Below, in pieces: positions 10,406 to 63,263 of a stretch of 64,000 nucleotides of DNA (positions are counted from its first letter, which is position 1; the number at the start of each line of letters is the position of its first letter). The position numbers and the translations under genes are program-made. The notes beneath the pieces were generated by a model. The model did not search any database and was not told the origin of the DNA. It saw only the letters and a program-made list of their open reading frames with translations. The stretch comes from Halobacteriales archaeon YIM A00013 (GTDB lineage: Archaea > Halobacteriota > Halobacteria > Halobacteriales > Haloarculaceae). The stretch covers positions 496,001-560,000 of the forward strand of contig JAKCFM010000001.1 of NCBI GenBank assembly GCA_025041195.1. Direction: 5' to 3'.

Positions 10406-10513
10406 CAATCATTTACCACAGACCCCCCGGGGGTGCAGGGGGTATTGGAGGTCTGTGGTCACACTGCCTCGTCAGTACTAAGTACAGTGGCTGTATACCG
10501 CTGATTGGCAACC
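10406..10513 (+). promoter_or_regulatory. CRISPR leader 2
   Basis: 108-bp leader between cas2 and array 2, closely matching leader 1 in inverted orientation (shared CACACTGCC, GTCAGT, CTAAGTA and ATTGGCAACC). It keeps the inverted repeat CCACAGACC at 10416-10424 and GGTCTGTGG at 10450-10458. A TATA-like CTGTATACC lies about 20 bases before the first repeat. Confidence 0.87.
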
Positions 10514-11788
10514 GTTACAGAACCACCCTAGTAGGATTGAAGCCCGATGACGCTCCGGATGGCGGATTTCTCAACAACTCGTTACAGAACCACCCTAGTA
10601 GGATTGAAGCTCATCGATGCAGACGGTGGGGCAGCACTGGCGCTGTGTTACAGAACCACCCTAGTAGGATTGAAGCGACTGACGGTCTGTCCGCGATCGC
10701 GTTGCCGGTGTTACAGAACCACCCTAGTAGGATTGAAGCAGTGCCAACAGCCAGCTATTCTACCATGCTACCGCCGTTACAGAACCACCCTAGTAGGATT
10801 GAAGCCATATGCAAAGTACTCACTGAAGCCATTTAGAGGTGTTACAGAACCACCCTAGTAGGATTGAAGCACTTGCATGGGTCAGCCAGAGGAATCCACC
10901 ATCACGGTTACAGAACCACCCTAGTAGGATTGAAGCCTTTTCGCGAAGCTCACCCAATGCTCTCGAGACGTGGTTACAGAACCACCCTAGTAGGATTGAA
11001 GCCTTTTCGCGAAGCTCACCCAATGCTCTCGAGACGTGGTTACAGAACCACCCTAGTAGGATTGAAGCACAGAACGACAACGCCACAGGATGATGGGGAC
11101 GAGTTACAGAACCACCCTAGTAGGATTGAAGCACAGAACGACAACGCCACAGGATGATGGGGACGAGTTACAGAACCACCCTAGTAGGATTGAAGCCTCA
11201 GCCAACTCCTCCGGCGTGTCGCGGTAGCGAGTTACAGAACCACCCTAGTAGGATTGAAGCTATCACTATGCCAAGCAAGGAGGATGGGATGCCCCGTTAC
11301 AGAACCACCCTAGTAGGATTGAAGCACGTCGTTCGAAAGGACGGACGAATGTATCACCCCAGTGTTACAGAACTACCCTAGTAGGATTGAAGCCGTCTTA
11401 CGTTCCACTACAACATCTTCTAGATCCCTTGTTACAGAACTACCCTAGTAGGCTTGAAGCACATGTCGGCTTTCGCGTCTTCTGCTTCAGCTCTGGTTAC
11501 AGAACTACCCTAGTAGGATTGAAGCCGTCTTACGTTCCACTACAACATCTTCTAGATCCCTTGTTACAGAACTACCCTAGTAGGCTTGAAGCACATGTCG
11601 GCTTTCGCGTCTTCTGCTTCAGCTCTGGTTACAGAACTACCCTAGTAGGATTGAAGCCGTCTTACGTTCCACTACAACATCTTCTAGATCCCTTGTTACA
11701 GAACTACCCTAGTAGGCTTGAAGCACATGTCGGCTTTCGCGTCTTCTGCTTCAGCTCTGGTTACAGAACTACCCTAGTAGATTAAGGC
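10514..11788 (+). CRISPR. CRISPR array 2, 20 repeats, leader at the left end
   Basis: Twenty 30-bp repeats start at 10514, 10581, 10647, 10710, 10776, 10841, 10907, 10973, 11039, 11103, 11167, 11231, 11296, 11364, 11431, 11496, 11563, 11628, 11695 and 11760. The last is degenerate. Spacers are 33-38 bp. The first 13 repeats carry AACCACCC and repeats 14-20 carry AACTACCC, the form of array 1. Spacers 7 and 8 are identical, as are 9 and 10. Spacers 14 and 15 recur as a pair three times, with the repeat after spacer 14 always reading GGCTTGAAGC. Reading frames across the array are repeat artefacts. Confidence 0.98.
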
Positions 11789-11906
11789 GACAGCCAGAAT
11801 GCAGATGTTCTCTCCGGCTGATTTAAGCTTATTCCATGAACCACTCGCTCCGCTCGTGGTGGGGGATCCCGGACATATACAGTTTCAAAAAATTCCTCTG
11901 TAGAGG

Positions 11907-11993: not shown

Positions 11994-11997
11994 CCAA

Positions 11998-12043
11998 CCT
12001 TTTTTCGACTCGGGTACACTCCGTGCACCACTCGTCCAAAAAA
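11998..12043 (-). repeat. 46-nt hairpin element (copy 1, distal)
   Basis: Minus-strand order: six T, GGAC, GAGT, arm GGTGCAC, loop GGA, arm GTGTACC, CGA, GTC, run of A, GG. It has the same length and layout as four other elements in the window, but different stem bases that still pair. May be an RNA hairpin or a terminator-like structure. Confidence 0.7.
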
Positions 12044-12076
12044 CGTTGATGAAAAAAGGCCGCTCGCTACACTCCA

Positions 12077-12122
12077 CCTTTTTTGATTTCGGGTGCACTC
12101 CGTGCACCACTCAATCAAAAAA
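12077..12122 (-). repeat. 46-nt hairpin element (copy 1, proximal)
   Basis: Minus-strand order: six T, GATT, GAGT, arm GGTGCAC, loop GGA, arm GTGCACC, CGA, AATC, six A, GG. The outer arms T6-GAT and ATC-A6 and the inner 7-bp stem are both complementary. Lies just downstream of the zinc-protein gene of copy 1. Confidence 0.72.
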
Positions 12123-12204
12123 TCTGGACCAAAAAATGCCGCTCGCTCCGCTCGCGGTAGGTGATTATAGCCACACGTCGTTTCGAAAAATTCCTCCGAG
12201 GAGG

Positions 12205-12729
12205 TTAATCGCAGTTCGCTGGAGAGACCAACAGTTGGAGGATCACGGGGAGTTCCTCAGTTGACCGCGCCTCACAGAACGGAACAACAGCTTCGAGCAA
12301 ACAACTTGCAGCCGAGACAGCCTCGTCTTGCGTCTGCGCACGAGCAGGATCTTCCGGACGATCTGGAGAAAACGCCAACAGCGTTACGTCGCCGCTCCGC
12401 TGTTCATGCGCACGCAACCGAGCATCATTGTCAAACCAGGCGGTGTAGATCGTCTCGCCCTGCGAGCGAAATCGAGTAATCCGATCAAGCGACGGAAGCG
12501 CATCAGGACCCCCGCCCGAGCGCTCGCTCAGATCAGCAATCGCGAGCACCTCCTCCACCTGACGACTGTGCCGGCACTCGGTTGACTGACAGGGCCGACA
12601 CCAGCAGTTTTCCGCGATATCCACGACGTGATGCAACTCAGCAGAGGAAAGCTCTTCGCGATCCTCGATCCCTTCCAGCGTACTGACCTGCCCATCTATC
12701 GTTCGAAAGCTGAACTGTGGAAGACTCAC
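12205..12729 (-). CDS. SWIM-like zinc-binding protein, module copy 1 (ORF B)
   Basis: 174-residue acidic protein of unknown function. Residues 42-54 read CWCRPCQSTECRH, matching the SWIM zinc pattern C-x-C-x7-C-x-H. A further conserved block is RFRSQGETIYTAWF, and the C-terminus reads LLVSPANCD. The start is taken as the GTG at 12729 because in all three copies that GTG overlaps the upstream microprotein stop as GTGA and gives exactly 174 codons plus stop; the frame is open further upstream, but that stretch duplicates the microprotein in another frame. Translation is probably coupled to ORF A. SWIM domains bind DNA or protein; no enzyme motif is seen. Confidence 0.75.
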   Translation of the reverse strand: MSLPQFSFRTIDGQVSTLEGIEDREELSSAELHHVVDIAENCWCRPCQSTECRHSRQVEEVLAIADLSERSGGGPDALPSLDRITRFRSQGETIYTAWFDNDARLRAHEQRSGDVTLLAFSPDRPEDPARAQTQDEAVSAASCLLEAVVPFCEARSTEELPVILQLLVSPANCD

Positions 12730-13000: not shown

Positions 13001-13308
13001 ATTTCTACGGCGATATGTGACTTCCCTTGATCGTCTTTCTCAGCGTGTACTCGTACTCTCTTGAACCTCTTGGTCCAGACAAACAATAATCCATTATAAT
13101 TTACAAACTCGACAGATTCGCTCACACTCGTTGTGAGTGGGTGCTCGGCCAACCGTGACGAACGCGCTTCGCGCACTCAAATTTCACAAAATTAACCTTG
13201 AAACGATAGGGGCTCTCCTCACACCCGCTGCTACACCACCACCAACCTTCATTCGTGTTGTCGTCTGTGTCCTGGATAGATCCCTATCGGGGAGCGTCTG
13301 CTCACACG
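13001..13308. other. Conserved spacer between coiled-coil gene and RNA unit, copy 1
   Basis: No gene seen. The half nearest the coiled-coil gene (about 13105-13308) is nearly identical to the equivalent spacer of copy 2. It includes CGCGAAGCGCG-type and CTCAC/GTGAG inverted repeats and a CCCTATCG block. The part nearest the RNA promoter differs between copies. Confidence 0.6.
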
Positions 13309-14157
13309 CTAGCCGGCTGTTCTGGTCGTGACACTCACAACGTTCGTGAGCACGCCATCCACCGCCTCCGATGTGAACTGTTCGGCCCTCTTGAGCCGGT
13401 TCGCTAGCCAGTCATCGAAGATCACCGCCTTTCCTTTGCCCGTGTGGACCACCTCCGTTCGATCACCACCGAGCCGATCAAGGAACGCCATCACCCGAGC
13501 AACCGTCTGATCGTGCGCCGATCCATACTCACGCTTGAGCTGATCTTTGATCGTGGTCGAATCCAGCCGCTTTCCTTTCGGCACTGTCGTTGCCAGTCCG
13601 CCGAGCTCCATCGCGATCATCCGTGCTCGTCGCTGGTTCGCGGTAAGCTTCGCACGGTGGAGAATCTCCTCGGGTAACCGAACGACCTGCTCCAACGGCG
13701 TCCGCTTTTCGCGTCCCTCACTGTTCTCGACCTTTCTCGCAACGGCGTCTGTGTGCGCCTCGTTCTGTTCCGTCGTCCGCTTGTTCTCGGTCACGTCCTG
13801 TCTGATCTCGGCTTTATCGCGCTCATTTGCCTCGCGGTAGTCCGTCTGCTCCCGTTCGAGCGCTTCAACTGTGGCTTCCAGTTCCGCAATTCTCGTTTTG
13901 TTCTGGTGCAACGCCGTTGTTTGGCTGTCGATCGTCGCTTGCTGGGTTTCAATTTCTGCCTGTTGAGCGTCGACCTTCGATTCCAGAGCGTTGATCTGTG
14001 CGCTCTGGCGCTCGATCTGCGCTGTCTTTTGGGCAATGGTCTCCTCTATTTCGGCTTTCCACGATCGAAACGCCTCGGGGAGAAAGCCGTCAACATCGCT
14101 GCCATCAGTAGAACTATCTGTGCTCCGTCCGTCGCTATCGTTGGGTTTGATAGTCAT
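13309..14157 (-). CDS. Coiled-coil protein with winged-helix-like C-terminus, module copy 1
   Basis: 282 residues from the ATG at 14157 (MTIKPNDSDG); an open frame extends upstream across the promoter palindromes and is not used. Residues about 35-150 form a long heptad-rich coiled coil (IEETIAQKTAQIERQ, LEATVEALEREQTDYR). The C-terminal 150 residues, including LTANQRRARMIAMELGG, TTIKDQLKREYG and RVMAFLDRLGGDR, look like a helix-turn-helix fold and are almost identical to the paralogue at 48134-48925, while the N-terminal halves differ. Probably a DNA-binding, oligomeric protein that could act on the palindromes before its own gene. Function unknown. Confidence 0.75.
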   Translation of the reverse strand: MTIKPNDSDGRSTDSSTDGSDVDGFLPEAFRSWKAEIEETIAQKTAQIERQSAQINALESKVDAQQAEIETQQATIDSQTTALHQNKTRIAELEATVEALEREQTDYREANERDKAEIRQDVTENKRTTEQNEAHTDAVARKVENSEGREKRTPLEQVVRLPEEILHRAKLTANQRRARMIAMELGGLATTVPKGKRLDSTTIKDQLKREYGSAHDQTVARVMAFLDRLGGDRTEVVHTGKGKAVIFDDWLANRLKRAEQFTSEAVDGVLTNVVSVTTRTAG

Positions 14158-48133: not shown

Positions 48134-48925
48134 ATGAATCAACAACCCAACACGAACGACGACAGCAGCATAGTTAATGATACTGGAACCAGCGAAGTTC
48201 TCAGCAATCTCCTAGAGGACGGGATCGAGAAAGATGATCCCGACCAGTTGGTTGGCGTGATCAAGACGTTGGTTGGTGAACTCCAGGTTCAGTACGAAGC
48301 AAATGACGACCTGAGAACCGCCATCGAACGGCGTGATGAACGGCTTATACATCTGGAAACGACGGTTGAGCGGCTCGAACGCGAGCAAAAAGAGTACCGC
48401 GAGATGAATGAGCGCGATAAGGCCGAGATCAGACAGGACGTGACGGAAAACAAGCGGGCGACTGAACAAAACGAGGCGCACACAGACGCTGTTGCAAGAA
48501 AGGTTGCAAATTGTGACGGACGTGAGGAACGGACGCCGTTAGAACAGATCGTCCAATTACCCGATGAGATTCTCCACAAGGCGAAACTGACGGCCAATCA
48601 ACGACGAGCGCGGACGATTGCGATGGAGCTCGGCGGACTGGCGACGACAGTGCCGAAAGGAAAGCGGCTGGATTCGACCACGATCAAAGATCAGCTCAAA
48701 CGTGAGTATGGATCGGCACACGACCAGACCGTTGCCCGAGTGATGGCGTTCCTTGATCGGCTGGGTGGTGATCGAACGGAGGTGGTCCACACGGGCAAGG
48801 GCAAAGCAGTGATCTTCGATGACTGGCTAGCGAACCGGCTCAAGAGGGCCGAACAGTTCACATCGGAGGCGGTGGATGGCGTGCTCACGAACGTTGTGAG
48901 TGTCACCACCAGAACGGCCGGCTAG
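48134..48925 (+). CDS. Coiled-coil protein with winged-helix-like C-terminus, module copy 2
   Basis: 263 residues starting MNQQPNTNDDSSIVND. Coiled coil about 50-145 (LRTAIERRDERLIHLETTV, ERLEREQKEYREMNERDKAE). From TPLEQIVQLPDEILHKAKL to the end it is nearly identical to copy 1, including SVTTRTAG at the C-terminus; the N-terminal 100 residues differ. A near-identical nucleotide stretch downstream implies recent gene conversion. Function unknown; likely DNA-binding. Confidence 0.75.
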   Translation: MNQQPNTNDDSSIVNDTGTSEVLSNLLEDGIEKDDPDQLVGVIKTLVGELQVQYEANDDLRTAIERRDERLIHLETTVERLEREQKEYREMNERDKAEIRQDVTENKRATEQNEAHTDAVARKVANCDGREERTPLEQIVQLPDEILHKAKLTANQRRARTIAMELGGLATTVPKGKRLDSTTIKDQLKREYGSAHDQTVARVMAFLDRLGGDRTEVVHTGKGKAVIFDDWLANRLKRAEQFTSEAVDGVLTNVVSVTTRTAG

Positions 48926-49240
48926 CGTGTAAGCACGGGCTCCCCGATAGGGATCTATCCAGGACACAGACGACAACACGATTGAGGGTTGGTGGTGGTG
49001 TAGCAGCAGGTGTGAGGAGATTCCCTATCGTTTCAAGTTTAGTTTTGTGAAATTTGGGTGCGCGAAGCGCGTTCGTCACGGTTGGCCGAGCACCCACTCA
49101 CGACGAGTGTGAGCGAATCTGTCGAGTTTGTTAATTAGAATGAATTACTGTCTAGTAACACTAGTTGCGCCTTCTTTGTTCTAGTGCAGGTTTAGCAGGA
49201 CGGTCCGGACGCATCACATAATAAGGAAGAATTCCAACAC
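48926..49240. other. Conserved spacer between coiled-coil gene and RNA unit, copy 2
   Basis: No gene. About 200 bases from the coiled-coil stop onward match copy 1 (CCCCGATAGGGATCTATCC, GCGAAGCGCG inverted repeat, CACTCACGACGAGTGTGAG). After about 49135 the sequences differ until the promoter at 49234. Confidence 0.6.
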
Positions 49241-49280
49241 ATACGAAAGTTTATAACCTAGTGGGTTGGCACAACCAACT
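49234..49280 (+). promoter_or_regulatory. Promoter of the RNA/ORF A/ORF B unit, copy 2
   Basis: CCAACACATACGAAAG followed by TTTATAA (49250-49256); the first base of the RNA element is 49281, exactly 24 bases after the TATA box. Confidence 0.7.
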
Positions 49281-49355
49281 GGGAACGCCAGCCGGAATGA
49301 TTTGCGCGTGTACTGAAACGCGCCGGGTGTTGGAGCACCCGACGCTGGGGTTCCC
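49281..49355 (+). ncRNA. 75-nt structured 5' leader RNA, module copy 2
   Basis: Closing stem GGGAAC-g-CCAGC (49281-49292) with GCTGG-g-GTTCCC (49344-49355). Hairpin 1 is GCGCGT with ACGCGC. Hairpin 2 is GGGTG with CACCC. The pairing pattern and the 75-nt length are shared with copies 1 and 3. ORF A begins 63 bases after it. Confidence 0.65.
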
Positions 49356-49418
49356 TAACCGAGAGGTGAACCCAATATGGGAATAACGCCGCGGTACTGT
49401 AATCCTGTCGTATCGTCA

Positions 49419-49511
49419 ATGACTACCACGCGGTGTGCACGCTGTGGTCAACCGGTTGCTCGGCCACGCGCACATGCAACGGGCTGTCCGTCGTGGAGGA
49501 TTGGCTCGTGA
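49419..49511 (+). CDS. 30-residue Cys/His microprotein, module copy 2 (ORF A)
   Basis: MTTTRCARCGQPVARPR then AHATGCPSWRIGS. C6, C9, H19 and C23 align with copies 1 and 3. Its TGA overlaps the next GTG by four bases (GTGA). Confidence 0.65.
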   Translation: MTTTRCARCGQPVARPRAHATGCPSWRIGS

Positions 49512-50032
49512 GTCTTCCCCAGTTCAGCTTCCGAACGATGGATGGACAGATCAGCACCCTTGCGGGAATCGAGGATCGCGAGGAACTCTCCTCTGCTGAG
49601 TTACACCACGTCGTGGATATCGCCGAGAACTGTTGGTGTCGTCCCTGTCAATCAACGGAATGTCGGCACAGTCGGCAAGTGGAGGAGGTGCTCGCGATTG
49701 CTGATCTGAGCGAGCGCTCGGGCGGGGGTCCTGATACGCTTCCGTCGCTTGATCGGATTACTCGGTTTCGCTCGCAGGGCGAGACCATCTACACCGCCTG
49801 GTTCGAAAACGATGCTCGGCTTCGTGCACATGAGCAACGGAGTGGTGACGTTACTTTGTTGGCGTTTTCTCCCGATCGTCCGGAGGATCCAGCGCGTGCA
49901 CAGACGCAAGACGAGGCTGTGTCTGCCGCGAGTTGTTTACTCGATGGAGTCGTGAAGTTCTGCGACGCACGATCAACCAAGGAACTCCCTGCGCTGCTTA
50001 AGCTGTTGGTCTCTCCAGCACACGACGACTAA
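49508..50032 (+). CDS. SWIM-like zinc-binding protein, module copy 2 (ORF B)
   Basis: 174 residues, GTG start at 49508 as in the other copies. CWCRPCQSTECRH at 42-54 matches C-x-C-x7-C-x-H. The C-terminus reads VVKFCDARSTKELPALLKLL then VSPAHDD, closer to its own downstream tail duplicate than to copies 1 or 3, which points to local gene conversion or an independent duplication. Confidence 0.75.
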   Translation: MSLPQFSFRTMDGQISTLAGIEDREELSSAELHHVVDIAENCWCRPCQSTECRHSRQVEEVLAIADLSERSGGGPDTLPSLDRITRFRSQGETIYTAWFENDARLRAHEQRSGDVTLLAFSPDRPEDPARAQTQDEAVSAASCLLDGVVKFCDARSTKELPALLKLLVSPAHDD

Positions 50033-50116
50033 CCCCAACTACGGAATTTTTCGAAACCACATGTGTGGCTAGGATTCCCCACCGCGAGCGCAGCGAGCGG
50101 CCTTTTTTGGTCCAGA

Positions 50117-50162
50117 TTTTTTGATTGAGTGGTTGCCGAAGGCAACCCGAGATCAAAAAAGG
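50117..50162 (+). repeat. 46-nt hairpin element (copy 2, proximal)
   Basis: Run of T, GATTGAGT, arm GGTTGCC, GAA loop, arm GGCAACC, CGAG, ATC, run of A, GG. Both stems pair fully. Confidence 0.72.
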
Positions 50163-50190
50163 TGGGTGACGCGGCCTTTTTTCATCAACG

Positions 50191-50236
50191 TTTTTTGCGG
50201 GAGTGGTTGCCGGAGGCAACCCGACCGGAAAAAAGG
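50191..50236 (+). repeat. 46-nt hairpin element (copy 2, distal)
   Basis: Run of T, GCGG, GAGT, arm GGTTGCC, GGA loop, arm GGCAACC, CGA, CCGG, run of A, GG. The GCGG/CCGG side stem differs from the GAT/ATC of its neighbour but is still complementary. Confidence 0.72.
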
Positions 50237-50239
50237 TTG

Positions 50240-50359
50240 GAGGCTGACTCTGCTGCGAGCTGTTTGCTCAATGGGGTCGTCAAGTTCTGTGACGCACGAT
50301 CAACCGAGGAGCTCCCTGCACTTCTCCAACTGTTGGTCTCTCCAGCACACGACGAGTAA
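50240..50359 (+). pseudogene. Duplicated 3' tail of zinc-protein gene (copy 2)
   Basis: Encodes ADSAASCLLNGVVKFCDA then RSTEELPALLQLLVSPAHDE and a stop, about 39 codons matching the end of ORF B of the same copy. No start codon. Confidence 0.75.
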
Positions 50360-62273: not shown

Positions 62274-62366
62274 ATGACTACCACGCGGTGTGCCCGCTGT
62301 GGACAGCCGGTAGCTCGTCCGCGCGCACACGCAACTGGCTGTCCGTCGTGGAGGGTCGGCTCGTGA
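62274..62366 (+). CDS. 30-residue Cys/His microprotein, module copy 3 (ORF A)
   Basis: MTTTRCARCGQPVARPR then AHATGCPSWRVGS. Same C6, C9, H19 and C23. The TGA overlaps the next GTG (GTGA). Confidence 0.65.
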   Translation: MTTTRCARCGQPVARPRAHATGCPSWRVGS

Positions 62367-62887
62367 GTCTCCCACAGTTCAGCTTCCGAACGGTAGACGG
62401 CCAGGTCAGCACACTTGATGGAATCGAGGATCGCGAGGAACTCTCTTCAGCTGAACTCCACCACGTGGTGGACATCGCCGAGAACTGTTGGTGTCGGCCC
62501 TGTCAATCAACGGAGTGTAGACACAGCCGCCAGGTTGAGGAGGTGCTGGCTATTGCTGATCTGAGCGAGCGTTCGGGCGGTGGGGTTGATGAACTTCCGT
62601 CGCTCGATCGGATTACTCGGTTTCGCTCGCAGGGCGAGACGATCTACACCGCCTGGTTCGAAAACGATGCCCGGCTTCGGGCGCATGAGCAACGGAGCGG
62701 GGATGTTACGCTGTTGGCGTTCTCACCTGATCGTCCGGAGGATCCTGCACGGGCGCAGACGCAGGACGAGGCAGTGTCTGCCGCGAGCTGTTTGCTAGAG
62801 GCTGTGGTTCCGTTCTGTGAGGCCCGATCGACCGATGAATTGCCTGTGATTCTCCAGTTGTTGGTCTCTCCAGCGCACTGCGAGTAA
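62363..62887 (+). CDS. SWIM-like zinc-binding protein, module copy 3 (ORF B)
   Basis: 174 residues from the GTG at 62363. CWCRPCQSTECRH at 42-54; QVEEVLAIADLSERSGGGVD, then RSQGETIYTAWFENDARL; ends VILQLLVSPAHCE. Complete and equal in length to the other copies, but without an adjacent full coiled-coil gene. Confidence 0.75.
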   Translation: MSLPQFSFRTVDGQVSTLDGIEDREELSSAELHHVVDIAENCWCRPCQSTECRHSRQVEEVLAIADLSERSGGGVDELPSLDRITRFRSQGETIYTAWFENDARLRAHEQRSGDVTLLAFSPDRPEDPARAQTQDEAVSAASCLLEAVVPFCEARSTDELPVILQLLVSPAHCE

Positions 62888-62969
62888 CCCCCTCGGAGGA
62901 ATCTTTTGAAACTGTATCTGTCCAGGATTACCCACCGCGAGCGAAGCTCGCGGCCTTTTTTCATCAACG

Positions 62970-63015
62970 TTTTTTCGACGAGTGGTTGCCGAAGGCAACC
63001 CGAGTCTAAAAAAGG
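62970..63015 (+). repeat. 46-nt hairpin element (copy 3)
   Basis: Run of T, CGAC, GAGT, arm GGTTGCC, GAA loop, arm GGCAACC, CGA, GTC, run of A, GG. Single hairpin in this copy. Confidence 0.7.
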
Positions 63016-63105
63016 TTGGGCAGTGGTTCCGTTCTGTGAAGCACGATCAATCGAGGAGTTGCCGTGATTCTCCAGTTGTTGGTCTCTCCAGCGCACTGCG
63101 AGTAA
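63016..63105 (+). pseudogene. Duplicated 3' tail of zinc-protein gene (copy 3)
   Basis: AVVPFCEARSIEELP, then one base is lost relative to ORF B so the frame shifts to a stop; the sequence still ends in the ORF B-like GCGCACTGCGAGTAA. Confidence 0.7.
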
Positions 63106-63263
63106 CCCCCTCGGAGGAATTTTTCGAAAACACATGGGGCTAGAATCACCCACTGCGAGCGGGTTACGAAATAGACTCGCACCGGGTGGTTGGAATCTCT
63201 ACGTTCCGTCCATGGCGATAGCATCGGTGTACATCCGCTTCACCCCTCCAGGATGGTCCTGGG

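Follow-up and report, generated by a model that had tools for sequence, protein, structure and literature searches.

The stretch of DNA analysed, here called the window, is 64,000 nt long and corresponds to C1:496001-560000 of a Halobacteriales genome (G000; 3.73 Mb in 3 contigs). It contains copies of an open reading frame, ORF B, that are followed by hairpin elements. The copy at 49508..50032 on the + strand has no Pfam or NCBIfam family, and the first T tract of element 1 is 74 nt behind the match. Another, at 12211..12726 on the − strand, is upstream of elements 4 and 5, and one at 62366..62878 on the + strand is upstream of element 3. There are 23 near-full-length copies of ORF B in this one genome, 11 at 78–100% and 12 at 42–44% identity. 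A small ORF, possibly encoding a zinc finger (49377-49511), is ahead of ORF B, and downstream of a TTTATAA box the close and distant subfamilies have in common a leader of some 110 nt (49250-49380). The conserved sequence of the leader, GGGAACGCCAG...GCGCG...CGCGCCGGGTG...CACCCGACGCTGGGGTTCCC, looks like that of a structured multi-stem RNA; it has no Rfam match at gathering score. A second, C-terminal ORF B fragment is often found behind the hairpins (e.g. 50213-50356). Behind some ORF B copies a conserved stretch takes the place of the hairpin element and ends in an inverted CRISPR-like repeat, e.g. GCTTCAATCCTACCAGGATGGTTCTATAAC (window 63148-63260; G000:C1:1309080-1309250 and 1502976-1503100); it may resemble CreA-type crRNA-like antitoxin genes. 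The window also has two CRISPR arrays in opposite orientation (374-928 and 10511-11805; repeat GTTACAGAAC(C/T)ACCCTAGTAGGATTGAAGC), the second with duplicated spacer-repeat blocks including three identical 132-nt units from 11364. Two inverted 799-nt copies, 13083-13881 and 48353-49151, are 90% identical and involve a coiled-coil ORF (48134-48925) of which further copies occur elsewhere in the genome; ORF B cassettes are duplicated together with it.

A preliminary description reported five 46-nt hairpins with shared inner stems, GNA loops and flanking N pieces that pair with each other. All five are present. They fit the pattern T6-N4-GAGT-17 nt-CGA-N4-A6 and are located at 50117, 50191 and 62970 on the + strand and at 12122 and 12043 on the − strand; their inner stems are GGTTGCC/GGCAACC or GGTGCAC/GTGCACC, with a single variant arm, GTGTACC. 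The 46-nt unit is real, but comparison of the copies in the genome reveals it as the second half of an element of about 87 nt. The order is a GC hairpin (hairpin 1), CC, T5/6, an 8-nt linker, T5/6, hairpin 2, A5/6 and a tail of GGTGG or GGTTG. Hairpin 1 reads CCGCGAGC-GNA-GCTCGCGG; its stem also occurs with tandem G.A. In the 5′ half of hairpin 2, T6 is followed by N4, G.A and A.G pairs, a G-C pair and a bulged T or C; its tip is a 7-bp stem with a C(GNA)G loop, and then come the mirror half, A6 and the tail. What lies between stem and N piece is no plain loop but tandem G.A mismatches, accompanied by a G-C pair and a single bulged base. The N pieces do pair, though several copies have a mismatch beside the T tract and a stem of just 3 bp there. 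The linker in this genome is CATCAACG or GGTCCAGA and is matched to its tail (CAAC with GTTG, CCA with TGG), with which it closes an additional outer stem.

Element 1 (50079..50165, + strand; linker GGTCCAGA, tail GGTGG) is matched by covariance model R1 at G000:C1:546079-546165 with an E value of 6.9e-17. Its hairpin 1, with tandem G.A and a C(GCA)G loop, is at 50082..50100 according to alignment A2 and the RNA fold; T tract 1 (sequence and alignment A2) is at 50103..50108. The linker at 50109..50116 pairs its CCA with the TGG 3′ of the A tract. Hairpin 2 at 50117..50165 comprises T tract 2, the N4 stem, tandem G.A, a bulged T, the 7-bp stem, a GAA loop, the A tract and GGTGG. Element 2 (50167..50239, + strand; CATCAACG and GGTTG) is in tandem with element 1 and has a shortened hairpin 1 (R1, E 2.8e-12); the range 50117-50236 highlighted before covers the T6 to A6GG parts of this pair. 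Element 3 (62932..63018, + strand; CATCAACG and GGTTG) scores E 5.2e-19, element 4 (12074..12160, − strand; GGTCCAGA and GGTGG) E 1.2e-16, and element 5, in tandem with element 4 (11995..12070, − strand; CATCAACG and GGTTG), E 4.3e-12. The second half can stand alone: L239 and L243 of genome G034 have hairpin 2 with its T and A tracts and lack hairpin 1 and T tract 1.

The pattern is not due to chance, since a loose version of it gave 13 matches in the genome and none with a reversed control. Trained on 18 copies, a covariance model recovers 21 in the same genome. Within the family, model R1 detected the element in 136 of 146 genomes and in 22 of 22 genera; in a sample of the phylum it gave matches in 58 of 392, all 58 in the same order (at least 20 of the non-matching genomes also belong to this order; the kinship of the 314 others is not given). 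A search of haloarchaeal genomes had been proposed at the outset, and a second model, built from diverse hits, detected the element across the order, in 258 of 293 genomes and 71 of 78 genera. A pattern scan of named genomes gave at least 110 stretches; the 80 loci among the matches listed are from Halobacteria-type genomes, e.g. Natrinema, Halorientalis, Halosimplex, Halococcus, Halorhabdus and Actinarchaeum. Five genomes of the same genus have from 17 to at least 30 copies. Two have none even at E 0.1, and the element is therefore dispensable. Rfam 15 gave no match at gathering score anywhere in the window, and hairpins 1 and 2 remained without a hit even at E 5. No description of the element was found in the part of the literature searched.

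ORF B is a local companion of the element. Within this genome 8 of 11 close copies are followed by an element 72–78 nt behind, as are none of the 12 distant copies, and the remaining elements are behind other sequences, one of them tRNA-Pro. The tie to ORF B suggested by the preliminary description holds locally; across the order the element is behind unrelated genes, a distribution that refutes an ORF B-specific RNA. Scattering without ORF B, one half of what had been named as telling against the original proposal, is thus found, but the other half, loss of stem conservation, is not: the stems are conserved.

The evidence for a structure maintained by compensatory change, as first proposed, is strong. 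In the 18 copies of alignment A2 (one outlier of 19 was removed), 8 pairs of hairpin 2 are changed on both arms, and changes on both sides occupy 55 cells compared with 21.9±3.4 with shuffled partners and at most 11 with slid arms. Among relatives the outer stem takes the forms CGCCCACG/GGTGG, CATCAACG/GGTTG, GGTCGAGA/GGTCG and GGTGGAGA/GGTCC, and also AGCGTAGA/GGTAC and CACCCATG/GATGG. Structural parsing succeeded for 149 of 155 elements, with 6 left out. The linker is 8 nt in 145 of the 149 (and in 55 of 58 in a set found by model rather than by pattern), and T2 plus N stem is 9 or 10 nt in 144. The fold of hairpin 2 belongs to the + strand. Counted without a model, its mismatches are G.A 79 times and T.C 6 times, and G-T occurs 25 times and A-C 5 times; the + strand RNA folds better than the other strand in 138 of 140 distinct hairpins, and with DNA parameters the figure is also 138 of 140 (copies being related, these strand counts are not independent).

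The tracts behave differently from the stems. Alignment A4 comprises 62 model hits, and its five main T/A columns show T-A in 59, 59, 62, 62 and 61 of them and A-T in none, though the model was trained on T6 copies and has some built-in bias toward T there; the stem columns flanking the tracts show 2–4 pair types. As T and A never swap while neighbouring pairs do, and a stem alone needs no such constancy, selection probably acts on the sequence of the T tracts in both strands. The minus-strand T tract is followed by C in 111 of the 149. The length of T2 correlates with that of the A tract (0.87); for T1 the correlation is weaker (0.56) and could reflect lineage. T1 is shorter than the A tract in 11 of the 149 only.

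Copies exchange their interiors. For the sister genomes G026 and G034, 7 of 14 G026 matches have an orthologous match in G034. At these seven sites the part from hairpin 1 to T2 is 81–100% identical and the A tract plus tail 100%. However, the interior has been replaced at 3 of the 7 while the frame was kept, identity there being 62–63%, and one replaced G026 interior is 98% identical to that of another G026 site with unrelated flanks. The N4 and inner stems also differ between G000 and G039 at the tRNA-Pro site. Part of the compensatory signal is therefore whole-cassette replacement rather than stepwise change, with the cassettes keeping the structure; we infer gene conversion across the conserved frame. 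A site for site-specific recombination, as the preliminary description put forward, would also have inner cassettes moving among copies within a frame that stays. This is very improbable: gene conversion explains the exchange, no recombinase linked to the element was found, the tracts and linker are unlike the half sites of a core site, and the element is mainly at gene ends.

The element sits mainly directly behind genes. Neighbours, called with a custom script, were compiled for 59 elements among the matches listed (flanks of at least 700 nt, duplicates removed, called neighbours required), and their orientations are ++ 24, +− 23, −− 9 and −+ 3. The figures are 84, 59, 71 and 74 for the 288 gaps between genes at the same loci that reach 90 nt. 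Divergent placement is depleted (3/59 versus 74/288, p=2e-4) and convergent placement enriched (23/59 versus 59/288, p=0.004). For 41 of these 59 a facing stop codon is within 60 nt, where random placement in the same gaps gives 26.2±2.9 with a maximum of 36 in 2000; in 7 of the 9 −− cases the stop of the minus-strand gene is 0–7 nt behind the element. One locus was taken from each of 55 genomes as a second set, which has +E− 28, −E− 12, +E+ 11 and −E+ 3, with one left unassigned. Pfam named 10 of the 47 abutting genes listed, several with housekeeping functions: thermosome, RadA (twice), ribosomal L15e, Pta, gyrA and aconitase, and also a UbiE-like methyltransferase, a KaiC-type ATPase and a GTPase. 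Five matches on plasmids are loosely placed, one being divergent and at most one near a stop, though annotation is incomplete there. In two genomes the minus-strand T6 begins 13–15 nt behind tRNA-Pro. A terminator specific for tRNA genes was considered and rejected, as a tRNA is present at only 1 of 55 further loci.

From this gene context, the T tracts kept on both strands and the housekeeping neighbours, the hairpins are probably the core of a conserved, bidirectional 3′-end (terminator) module of Halobacteria. Its frame is fixed, running from hairpin 1 through two T tracts separated by 8 nt to the core hairpin, then to the A tract and GGTGG; on the opposite strand the A tract reads as a T tract. 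A two-sided terminator would fit this arrangement, in which a pair of U tracts with fixed spacing stands behind the + gene and a single one immediately behind its opposite neighbour. The + strand transcript would end at the two spaced U tracts, its 3′ end being made when RNA polymerase is released, when aCPSF1/FttA (a termination nuclease that binds U tracts) cleaves the RNA, or in both ways. For transcription from the other side, the end would come immediately after the stop codon, at the T tract that the opposite strand has in place of the A tract. The core hairpin between opposing T tracts could act as a pause, a barrier or a protection of RNA ends, and its inner part would be exchanged among the copies of a genome, most simply by gene conversion. 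According to PMC7237163, Haloferax terminates at T stretches, with a T5C site 95% effective in vivo, and hairpins are upstream of 503 of its termination sites. PMC8716108 has aCPSF1 binding the U tracts of terminators through its KH domains, with its nuclease activity being needed, and also reports its dimerization.

Several observations go against a terminator. Among the 59 elements from the matches listed, 18 are more than 60 nt from a facing stop and 3 are divergent, while the elements in the genome analysed are 72–78 nt behind ORF B rather than abutting its stop. A scan for terminator-like features did not flag the element. The loosely placed plasmid matches and the two genomes of the genus that lack the element also count against this reading. 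Furthermore, an efficient terminator would leave the core, which is beyond the T tracts, untranscribed: hairpin 2 is mostly outside an RNA ending there, yet its + strand fold is conserved, which the model leaves unexplained. RNA polymerase may frequently run beyond the tracts ahead of cleavage, the core may exert its effect on DNA or as a barrier, or else transcripts do not end at the U tracts. On the last of these, transcripts would run through T tracts that are not termination sites, and their 3′ ends would include hairpin 2 in its folded form, as an RNA-level 3′ UTR domain for stability, processing or protein binding. The selection of the + strand fold, with its preference for G-U over A-C and G.A over T.C and its advantage in nearly all hairpins, is as expected for such a domain, as are the constant linker, the paired arm lengths and the favouring of + orientation in co-directional gaps (24 versus 9 among the matches listed). 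It is nevertheless rather unlikely, given that T stretches terminate strongly in Haloferax (PMC7237163), that −− placements make the selected strand antisense to the gene, and that wholesale replacement of the interior argues against specific contact of a ligand or protein with the inner stem.

ENE elements of eukaryotic and viral RNAs contain a U.A-U triple helix. By analogy, the two U tracts and single A tract could form one, stacked on a core with a freely exchanged inner hairpin, and the element would then be a new archaeal 3′-end RNA. This is an improbable proposal that would fit the 8-nt linker, the arm length of 9–10, the rarity of a T1 below A length and a conserved G.G mismatch beside the tract. 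Two other structures were discarded. Kink-turns have a 3-nt bulge adjoining tandem G.A, while here the bulge is of 1 nt and in the wrong place, on the far side of the G-C pair, so that a kink-turn or box C/D RNA does not apply. A switch in which CC-T1 pairs with A-GG in place of T2 is not supported, as T1 has CC ahead of it in no more than 60 of 149 elements and GG is not invariable. The terminator reading also revises the initial verdict of "not a simple terminator": T2 and A do form a stem with a conserved core, but the context suggests a role at gene ends.

The high copy number raises the question of mobility. A dispersed hairpin element that was, or still is, mobile could spread as single-stranded DNA and be tolerated at gene ends where it serves as terminator too. 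It would account for the spread from zero to at least 30 copies within the genus, for tandem copies and for interiors copied between sites. The better folding of the + strand with DNA parameters also counts for it, since GNA triloops and G.A pairs form notably stable structures when DNA is single-stranded. In PMC3119063, PATEs are likewise palindromic, with near-terminal palindromes, and lack a transposase. Mobility is unlikely all the same, with sites being kept between species (the seven shared by G026 and G034), T/A tracts constrained in sequence and a strong orientation relative to genes. No clean empty site was found; at the tRNA-Pro site two of the 7 genomes in the genus have the element and the other 5 lack it, with flanks too diverged for comparison. 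Y1 transposase is missing in element-rich G039 (17 elements), G061 (22) and G141 (28), and also in G003, G114 and G144, and a REP driven by IS200 was dropped on this ground. Membership of the IS200, REP or PATE groups fails on the transposase tested, but the element may once have spread likewise. A virus- or plasmid-borne element was rejected, with no match in the viral contigs searched or in 50,697 phage records and matches in 5 of 72,556 plasmid records.

A structured module absent from Rfam is positioned behind gyrA, radA, thermosome and L15e genes, and its hundreds of natural variants would allow testing of how U-tract spacing, hairpins and aCPSF1 form 3′ ends. Swapping of an inner hairpin within an inherited frame is unusual evolution for a regulatory element, and affects how compensatory changes in multi-copy elements are to be read.

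The combination has partial counterparts elsewhere. REP/BIME repeats with their RAYT transposases are multi-copy hairpins at gene ends with tandem arrays and a bulged base, all features shared by the haloarchaeal element; in contrast to them it needs no Y1 transposase and has T/A tracts, two hairpins and an order-wide frame. PATEs and the IS605-type ends of Haloquadratum are, like it, transposase-free, palindromic and multi-copy in haloarchaea. However, the PATE is described (PMC3119063) with two near-terminal palindromes, whereas here a second end was not found and sites are common to species. The repetitive and double hairpin elements of mitochondria (Allomyces, sponges) also have two adjacent hairpins, intergenic and in many copies, as does this element. 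In PMC2800124, sponge mitochondrial elements have conserved stems and changing loops; that pattern is not found here, since the stems are free to covary and there is little change in loops and tracts. Descriptions of archaeal termination usually give U tracts as its driver and RNA structure a minor role. The element shares with archaeal U-tract terminators, such as the Haloferax T5C sites and the aCPSF1-dependent terminators, a T tract of at least 5 behind genes and, among the matches listed, the depletion between divergent genes (3/59 versus 74/288). Like the Haloferax T5C site (PMC7237163), its minus-strand T tract is mostly followed by C. Known terminators of this type are described as T stretches with upstream hairpins in a subset, while the present module is a fixed arrangement with T tracts on both strands, two of them spaced by 8 nt, and with a core hairpin that covaries and is enclosed by the opposing tracts. 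It is this structured, cassette-swapping core that is new relative to the archaeal U-tract terminators.
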